Source of the DNA: an uncultured Pelagibacteraceae bacterium
Lineage (GTDB): Bacteria; Pseudomonadota; Alphaproteobacteria; Pelagibacterales; Pelagibacteraceae
Direction of reading: 5' to 3'
Assembly: GCA_902579215.1 (NCBI GenBank)
Contig: CACHGH010000002.1
Coordinates: forward strand, 1-36,493
Length of the DNA: 36,493 nucleotides
In this document: piece after piece, positions 27,284-33,878 of the stretch
Layout: the number at the start of each line of letters is the position of its first letter
Numbering within the stretch: the stretch's first letter is position 1
Position numbers and translations under genes: made by a program
Notes under the pieces: generated by a model
The model's input: only the letters and a program-made list of their open reading frames with translations
Database searches by the model: none
What the model was told of the DNA's origin: nothing

Positions 27284-27318
27284 ATTACTATTGATAACAA
27301 TTAATTATCATTAGTAAT
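27284..27318. repeat. 35-bp imperfect inverted repeat, candidate recombinase core site or operator
   Basis: Two 14-bp arms, ATTACTATTGATAA (27284-27297) and TTATCATTAGTAAT (27305-27318), are inverted with 13 of 14 positions matching, separated by the 7-bp spacer CAATTAA. Paired arms around a 6-8-bp centre, with inner ends reading ATAA and TTAT, are the layout of tyrosine-recombinase core sites such as dif. It starts 3 bp from the recombinase start codon. It also covers the predicted transcription start, so bound recombinase could repress its own gene. A role as a plain operator is equally possible. Confidence 0.6.
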
Positions 27319-27547: not shown

Positions 27548-27617
27548 GATTATTAAAAAATTAATAAATTCAACAAAAAAGTGATACATACAACTCATTG
27601 TCTTTGATAATTTAATA

Positions 27618-27805
27618 ATGAATTAAGAGGCAACTCTTAACTGGCCAATTGGGGAAAAACCGAGAGGTTCAAGCCTAGGGGGCAGAAAACTCTGCGGAGT
27701 AGCGCTAAAATCGTAGAGTGGAAGGCATGGCGGTAGCGCATACAACGACGTGCCAAAACTACTGTTCTTTGCACCGTAAAAAGTGCAAGGAAACAGGGTT
27801 TTTTC
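27618..27805 (+). ncRNA. Candidate structured RNA upstream of the alkyltransferase gene
   Basis: A block visibly richer in G and C than its surroundings, with no convincing reading frame, that folds into successive hairpins. They are TTAAGAG-GCAA-CTCTTAA (27623-27640, GNRA loop), AACC-GAGA-GGTT (27658-27669, GNRA loop), GCAG/CTGC (27682-27695), a 9-bp stem GGCATGGCG/CGACGTGCC with one mismatch (27724-27754), and a closing AGTAG/CTACT pair (27698-27702 with 27759-27763). It ends in a strong terminator. A GATAAT -10-like box at 27606-27611 would start transcription just before the first hairpin. No signatures of RNase P RNA, SRP RNA, tmRNA or 5S rRNA are seen. It could be an independent RNA or a cis-acting leader for the gene at 27813. 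Confidence 0.6.
27762..27805 (+). terminator. Intrinsic terminator of the candidate RNA
   Basis: The stem CTGTTCTTTGCAC (27762-27774) pairs with GTGCAAGG-A-AACAG (27783-27796) as 13 bp with one bulged A around an 8-nt loop, followed by GG and six T (27799-27804). It ends only 8 bases before the ATG of the alkyltransferase gene, so that gene needs readthrough or its own start within this region. Confidence 0.8.
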
Positions 27806-27812
27806 TTATTAA

Positions 27813-28088
27813 ATGATCCTAAAAGGCACAAAATTTCAAATCAAAGTCTGGAATTACCTTATGAAAATACCAAAAGGCAAGGTAAAAAGCTATAAACAAG
27901 TTGCTTTGGGTATAAATAGGCCTAGATCGGCTCGTGCTGTTGCTAATGCATGTGGAAAAAACCCCTATGCTCCTAAAGTACCATGTCATAGGGTTATTAG
28001 GTCAGATGGTTCACTGGGTGGTTACTCTGGATCTGGAGGTATAAAAACTAAGAAAAAGCTCCTAAAAAAAGAAGGTTTTTCCTTTTAA
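27813..28088 (+). CDS. Stand-alone O6-alkylguanine-DNA alkyltransferase domain (MGMT/Ogt-like)
   Basis: Matches the C-terminal, DNA-binding and active-site domain of MGMT/Ogt: TKFQIKVWNYLMKIPKGKVKSY, then RSARAVANACGKNP (helix-turn-helix with the Arg finger), the active-site PCHRV (Cys58) and the closing GGYSGSGGIKTKKKLL. The 91 residues lack the N-terminal domain of full-length enzymes. Alkyltransferase-like (ATL) proteins of this size carry Trp in place of Cys; here Cys is kept, so alkyl transfer from damaged guanine remains possible. No Shine-Dalgarno precedes the ATG. The start at 27813 follows the RNA terminator directly. Confidence 0.88.
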   Translation: MILKGTKFQIKVWNYLMKIPKGKVKSYKQVALGINRPRSARAVANACGKNPYAPKVPCHRVIRSDGSLGGYSGSGGIKTKKKLLKKEGFSF

Positions 28089-28530
28089 AAGCTAGCAATA
28101 CCAACGATTTTAGTAAATTTTCCCCTATTAACCTGATATTTTTTGTTTTCGCCCTTCAGTTGTACTCTGTATTGGTAGATCGTAGAATATACCCCTTCTA
28201 TGGCCGTTTAAACGCTATATTCATGTTATGCAATGCTCTATAATTAGCCATCATCAATTCATATTTAAACCCTCAAAATCAATCATTTTAAGGTGGTTTT
28301 ACTCTATTTTTATTTATTGATTGCTATTTTTATAAACTATTTTTTTAGTATATCCAAAAACCTTGATTTTATTATTTTTTTAAGGGTTTTAAATAATATA
28401 ATTTACATGCTTATGTATATATTACTTAATTATATGTTACTTTAAGTTATATAAATAATGTAATAATTTCAGTATGTTATTTTAATAACTTAAAGTAAAA
28501 TATTATAAAATAGGTAATGTTTATTTACTA
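28089..28530. other. 442-bp gene-free stretch
   Basis: Lies between the alkyltransferase gene and the convergent DMT permease. No protein longer than about 20 codons with recognisable features is seen on either strand. The left part (28090-28250) is less AT-rich and contains the palindrome CGTTTAAACG (28204-28213) and a short minus-strand frame that begins MANYRALHNMN and is soon interrupted by stops, possibly a decayed gene. The right part (28290-28520) is almost pure A/T and contains a 14-bp inverted repeat, listed separately. Confidence 0.6.
28437..28498. repeat. Perfect 14-bp inverted repeat with 34-bp spacer
   Basis: TTACTTTAAGTTAT at 28437-28450 is repeated inverted as ATAACTTAAAGTAA at 28485-28498. 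The spacer ends in a smaller palindromic motif GTTATT-TT-AATAAC that overlaps the right arm. In RNA it could form a long hairpin, serving as a bidirectional end signal between the two convergent genes; in DNA it could be a protein-binding pair. The arms differ from those of the repeat near the recombinase. Confidence 0.55.
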
Positions 28531-33791: not shown

Positions 33792-33817
33792 CTCATTAAT
33801 ACGAAAATTTTTTCGTT

Positions 33818-33878
33818 GGGTATTTATACTAACTTGTGCGCCCTGAATTAATCAAAAGCACTAAAAAGGAGAAATAAA
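33818..33878 (+). promoter_or_regulatory. SAM-V/SAM-II-like riboswitch controlling metY
   Basis: An H-type pseudoknot can form here. GGG (33818-33820) pairs with CCC (33841-33843), and loop bases GTGC (33836-33839), within AACTTGTGC, pair with GCAC (33858-33861). TAAAAAGGAG follows directly, and its AAGGAG (33866-33871) is the Shine-Dalgarno 7 bases before the metY ATG. SAM-II and SAM-V aptamers share this shape, and SAM-V is known from marine SAR11 upstream of methionine genes. Ligand binding would hide the ribosome-binding site, giving translational repression when S-adenosylmethionine is plentiful. Subclass assignment is from memory of the consensus, not a covariance search. Confidence 0.75.

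Follow-up and report, generated by a model that had tools for sequence, protein, structure and literature searches.

IMES-2 (RF02035) is an RNA family already catalogued in Rfam, found in SAR11 ocean bacteria and without an assigned function. Its source is reportedly a paper in Nature in 2009. That original description lies outside the literature searched here, in which the sole paper to name IMES-2 is a report on the giant squid genome, where it figures as environmental (marine) contamination. SAR11 bacteria are among the commonest cells of the ocean and have few regulators, and an RNA regulator in them would have wide interest. IMES-1 (RF02034) belongs to the same naming series of marine environmental RNAs but forms a separate family; a search of 48 SAR11 genomes, run with no positive control, returned no match to it. 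The fourth candidate motif of Meyer et al. 2009 is a likely separately transcribed SAR11 RNA with glycosyltransferase-region genes as its 5' neighbours, drawn as a three-stem junction with no covariation (PMC2704228). Both that motif and IMES-2 come from SAR11, but the three-stem junction sets it apart, by description, from the four serial hairpins of IMES-2.

The window analysed here is a stretch of 36,493 nucleotides from an uncultured Pelagibacteraceae bacterium (contig CACHGH010000002.1). We read its RNA locus as a self-contained, accessory gene for a stand-alone structured noncoding RNA that has a helix between two of its loops and would act in trans, and we assign this reading a probability of about 0.72. 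IMES-2 was catalogued from marine metagenomes without a function; a gene of its own, a near-unique promoter element, absence from complete relatives and loop pairing now open the way to specific tests.

Identity and extent of the gene

A cmscan run over the whole window finds RF02035 at 158.9 bits, compared with a gathering score of 54.7 (E 5e-42), and the match covers model positions 1-141 of 141 with no truncation. The window RNA is a complete, full-length IMES-2. It has all four consensus hairpins, the conserved loop sequences and the marine SAR11 origin of the family, and differs from it in nothing at the sequence level. An earlier note on this DNA had presented the RNA as unassigned, perhaps a new small RNA, and had proposed a covariance-model search against Rfam; that search, with its high-scoring family match, removes the novelty. 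The same note had recognised no RNase P, SRP RNA or tmRNA, and these Rfam models are indeed unmatched at the locus in a permissive cmscan to E = 5, which besides IMES-2 gives just a chance match to PhrS at 8.7 bits. The genome to which the window belongs has one copy of IMES-2. The minimum free energy of the IMES-2 stretch is -66.4 kcal/mol, against -46.8 +/- 4.0 kcal/mol for shuffled sequences (z = -4.95, with 0 of 200 shuffles as good).

Folding places a hairpin with a T-run downstream of the RNA in 137 of 138 IMES-2 sequences, at a median of -22 kcal/mol, compared with 4% of shuffles; the sequence of this terminator hairpin varies between genera. The noted structured RNA, ending in a terminator of its own (a long hairpin followed by six T), is thus borne out by the shuffle-tested fold and by the hairpin and T-run, as is the coding start 8 bases beyond the T-run, which is the alkyltransferase ATG at 27813. 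The 5' end of the RNA is placed from sequence at about 27616-27621, and the gene is predicted to be a transcription unit of about 230 bp that yields an RNA of about 185 nt. Table 1 lists the features of the locus.

Table 1. Features of the IMES-2 locus, in window coordinates; promoter, terminator and pairing assignments are predictions.
Feature	Position	Strand	Basis
IMES-2 RNA	27616..27756	+	RF02035 model positions 1-141, cmscan
Conserved promoter element CAACAAAAAAGTGATA	27571..27586	+	Consensus CAA(C/g)NA..AA(A/G)GTGAT in 141/141 upstream regions
Extended -10 (TG-A-TAATTT)	27605..27613	+	Fixed 20-nt spacing from GTGAT
Hairpin 1, GCAA tetraloop	27623..27640	+	Covariation, 54 sequences
Hairpin 2, conserved internal loop and GAGA tetraloop	27641..27685	+	Covariation, 54 sequences
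Hairpin 3, GCGCU in loop at 27702-27706	27689..27719	+	Covariation, 54 sequences
Hairpin 4, AGCGC in loop at 27735-27739	27724..27754	+	Covariation, 54 sequences
Loop-loop helix, 27702-27706 (GCGCU) with 27735-27739 (AGCGC)	27702..27739	+	Covariation
Intrinsic terminator, hairpin and six T (27799-27804)	27757..27804	+	Folding, 137/138 sequences

Covariation of the hairpins and of loops 3 and 4

The nested structure was scored on an alignment of 54 sequences. Over its 39 consensus pairs, 93.4% of cells are paired and 31 pairs have changes on both sides; by every measure, none of 500 shuffles was as good. Hairpin 1 has 100% of its cells paired, with both-side changes at 4 of its 7 pairs, while such changes appear at 9 of 11 outer pairs and 3 of 4 tip pairs of hairpin 2, at all 8 pairs of hairpin 3, and at 7 of 9 pairs of hairpin 4. 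Covariation in the homologous SAR11 regions, which the earlier note had proposed to look for, therefore supports the four predicted hairpins. Its two GNRA-capped hairpins were correctly seen: TTAAGAG-GCAA-CTCTTAA is hairpin 1, and AACC-GAGA-GGTT forms the tip of hairpin 2. The stem it gave as 9 bp, GGCATGGCG/CGACGTGCC (27724-27732 with 27746-27754), does have nine positions, but these comprise eight standard pairs and one G.A mismatch. The mismatch (27730 with 27748, alignment columns 125 and 144) is a standard pair in 0 of the 54 sequences and probably represents a non-canonical pair that has been conserved.

The loops of hairpins 3 and 4, of 15 and 13 nt with a linker of 4-6 nt between the two hairpins, are near-invariant save for two letters each, and those letters vary in concert. 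Six combinations occur: GCGCU/AGCGC, GUGCU/AGCAC, GCACU/AGUGC, GUACU/AGUAC, GUUCU/AGAAC and GAACU/AGUUC. Scored as a pseudoknot, the loop-loop helix has 98.5% of cells paired, and in 29 cells both partners have changed; none of 500 shuffles scored as high, and sliding the partner by 1-3 columns leaves at most 65% paired. Its four inner pairs are standard in all 54 aligned sequences and are kept in about 139 sequences, with the two variable pairs in the six combinations above; the single apparent exception, L049, arose where the search pattern had matched a wrong part of the sequence, and in the alignment L049 has GUUCU/AGAAC. At two further loci a change from G-C to U-A (UCGCU/AGCGA) preserves the outer pair, which is the weaker one. 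The IMES-2 alignments were not fitted to this helix. On a tree built from the IMES-2 RNA itself, with the loop-helix columns left out, the loop states switch about 8-9 times, both loops together. The covariation indicates that the two loops pair with each other, and it fits a kiss within one molecule or between two. Rfam's printed nested consensus for RF02035 has no helix between loops 3 and 4, no promoter element and no terminator, and to our knowledge such printed consensus lines never carry pseudoknots. We claim to have tested the loop pairing, without being certain that it is unpublished: no prior description was found in the literature searched, the original 2009 paper being outside it.

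Phage phi29 pRNA forms dimers and rings through loop-loop contacts, and the loops of IMES-2 might likewise meet between molecules, giving a dimer or larger ring through contacts of loop 3 with loop 4'. Both loops are near-identical and complementary, and the short linker would strain a straight coaxial kiss within one molecule; but loops as large as these, with unpaired flanks, could permit a bent intramolecular kiss, and we hold the intermolecular arrangement to be possible, if somewhat unlikely. Should it apply, the likeness to phi29 pRNA and to the RNA-only oligomers GOLLD, ROOL and OLE would lie in loop-loop self-contacts; no sequence relation is claimed, and an IMES-2 oligomer is hypothetical.

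Promoter, distribution and candidate modes of action

The consensus element upstream of IMES-2 lies 34-37 bases before the model start in every one of 141 distinct upstream regions. It is 16 bp long (CAAC...AAGTGATA), and lining up the sequences on GTGAT brings out an extended -10, TGNTNNNNT, at constant spacing. From that constant spacing, transcription would start at about model position 4-6 (about 27619-27621), and the element would span about -49 to -35. The site has its centre near -42, and a recognisable -35 box is absent. The promoter may be activator-dependent (class II-like), as comparison with known class II promoters suggests. The window's own genome has one exact match to the element, at IMES-2. 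Across 11 genomes, the element and the -10 are found at IMES-2 where the exact pattern fits, and other matches are no commoner than in a backward control. A search for a regulon with the element, in the window's own genome and the 11 genomes, gave nothing beyond IMES-2 above control; because the other matches stay at control level, no regulon could be read off, and the element is, in effect, unique in each genome. Promoter-like element and terminator accompany IMES-2 across unrelated neighbourhoods, and IMES-2 appears to be a self-contained gene that carries both.

IMES-2 was found in 134 of 197 sampled Pelagibacteraceae genomes, representing 12 of 14 genera, and always as one copy. A new covariance model, R1, constructed from 54 diverse members, recovers the IMES-2 members of this bacterial family, in 54 of 147 genomes of the order; its search of 288 genomes of the class gave no new IMES-2, the two matches being family members already known. 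The exact pattern of hairpin 1, searched in GTDB contigs, occurs solely in Pelagibacteraceae/Pelagibacterales among the matches listed, and R1 confirms IMES-2 in 80 of 80 of these pattern matches. Viral contigs gave zero matches to the patterns of hairpins 1 and 3 and four to that of hairpin 4, none of them confirmed by the covariance model. Occurrence is patchy inside the window's genus (g1), where seven of the listed genomes without the RNA are 99-100% complete. A degenerate pattern, used to look for diverged IMES-2 in genomes without it, recovered four positives, and elsewhere its matches did not exceed the level of the backward control. Since there are complete relatives that do without it, IMES-2 is an accessory gene.

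As we picture its action, an activator at the element near -42, together with the extended -10, would switch on the IMES-2 promoter; the loop-loop helix would lock the 3' half of the RNA into a compact fold or join two molecules; and the RNA would act in trans, where a regulatory RNA of the protein-binding or tertiary-fold kind is more likely than a simple antisense RNA. Invariant unpaired bases occur in the tetraloops, in the internal loop of hairpin 2 (GAAA/AA) and in the A-rich flanks of the kissing loops, as they do in RNAs that form tertiary contacts or bind protein. It is because these bases are not gathered in one open seed that we favour such an RNA over an antisense RNA. Our first choice is a compact or dimeric RNA with a regulatory or scaffold role, since the loop cores co-vary together instead of holding one sequence for an outside target; a base-pairing sRNA comes second and a leader last.

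As a base-pairing regulatory sRNA, IMES-2 would use the conserved loops GUAGCGCU and GUAGCGC as seeds for mRNAs. The high conservation of the loops is consistent with this, as is the 3' poly-U terminator hairpin, a feature of Hfq-dependent sRNAs, but loop cores that change together are expected of mutual pairing and not of separate outside targets, and IMES-2 has no C-rich anti-Shine-Dalgarno stretch; such a role is unlikely. Quite unlikely, too, is an elaboration in which IMES-2 builds dimers or rings by reciprocal contacts of loops 3 and 4, as an RNA-only or RNA-protein complex, with a dedicated activator at its unusual promoter.

IMES-2 is not itself 6S RNA (RF00013), as the window gives no 6S match and the four hairpins stand in series. 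It could instead be a functional stand-in, for RF00013 was found in 0 of 48 SAR11 genomes, mostly complete and with or without IMES-2, by a search that detects the 6S RNA of Caulobacter as a positive control. Against this, 6S RNA is a single long rod with a bubble at its centre, unlike four serial hairpins, and there are complete genomes without both RNAs; replacement of 6S RNA by IMES-2 is unlikely, and very much so.

Genomic neighbourhoods

Gene order in g1 runs from an integrase gene on the minus strand through a small membrane ORF and IMES-2 to the alkyltransferase gene on the plus strand; wherever a sampled g1 locus has the RNA, IMES-2 again precedes the alkyltransferase. Nine other sampled genera have IMES-2 directly after mnmA, facing a convergent membrane-protein gene and with no integrase beside it. 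In genus g9 its neighbours are a nuclease-like gene before it and a convergent SRAP gene beyond it, and in genus g7 the next sense gene after it is rmuC. There are three unrelated IMES-2 neighbourhoods, and most have a convergent downstream gene, so that in most genera other than g1 there is no sense gene to regulate. Among 20 g1 genomes without IMES-2, 18 have the alkyltransferase, and in several g1 genomes the small membrane ORF on the integrase side runs straight into it, with the entire IMES-2 unit absent.

These arrangements bear on a suggestion of the earlier note, that the RNA is an attenuating leader of the repair gene. In this view it would be a cis-acting attenuator, or a riboswitch-like leader, for the alkyltransferase, and a ligand or DNA damage would control its terminator. 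The closeness of the ATG to the T-run in the window and the order retained in g1 speak for it. A leader needs a conserved sense gene, however, and this is missing: the next gene is a convergent one in the nine genera with mnmA and, as SRAP, in g9, and is different or unrelated elsewhere, while relatives without the RNA retain the alkyltransferase, several of them directly after the small membrane ORF. The convergent contexts already largely refute a leader, which is the least probable of the readings weighed here. Since IMES-2 in g1 ends a few bases before a sense gene, read-through of the terminator could still feed the alkyltransferase there. An RNA belonging to the mobile segment, also suggested, is rejected on the single copy, the mnmA context without an adjoining integrase in nine other sampled genera, the integrase that occurs without IMES-2 and the lack of a confirmed copy in viral contigs. 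Given the missing sense gene and the loci without the RNA that keep alkyltransferase and integrase, the repair gene does not account for IMES-2, and nor does the recombinase.

In six loci (L051, L052, L057, L059, L062 and L063), the small membrane ORF and the alkyltransferase are present while IMES-2, with its promoter and terminator, is precisely missing between them. These represent natural loss or pre-gain states and are useful for comparison.

Three further elements were seen in the window. At 28147-28244 on the minus strand lies a conserved noncoding element, about 100 nt long (AGAGC.ATGCA...GAATATA.C.TTTAAA.G.CCATAGA.GGG...ACAACT.AAGGGTGAA). In the fetched SAR11 loci it is present at 78 places, adjoining the alkyltransferase and pointing either way. 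The element has no match in Rfam, and as RNAalifold gives it no consensus structure, we take it for a probable DNA site and not an RNA. A near-perfect inverted repeat, ATTACTATTGATAA-N-TTATCATTAGTAAT, lies at 27284-27318, directly upstream of the tyrosine recombinase gene; it is near-invariant in 66 matches in the fetched loci and is a candidate recombination core site or operator. Finally, a SAM-V riboswitch is found at 33809-33874, upstream of a gene for a PLP-dependent sulfhydrylase-like protein, a position in which this riboswitch is known from SAR11.
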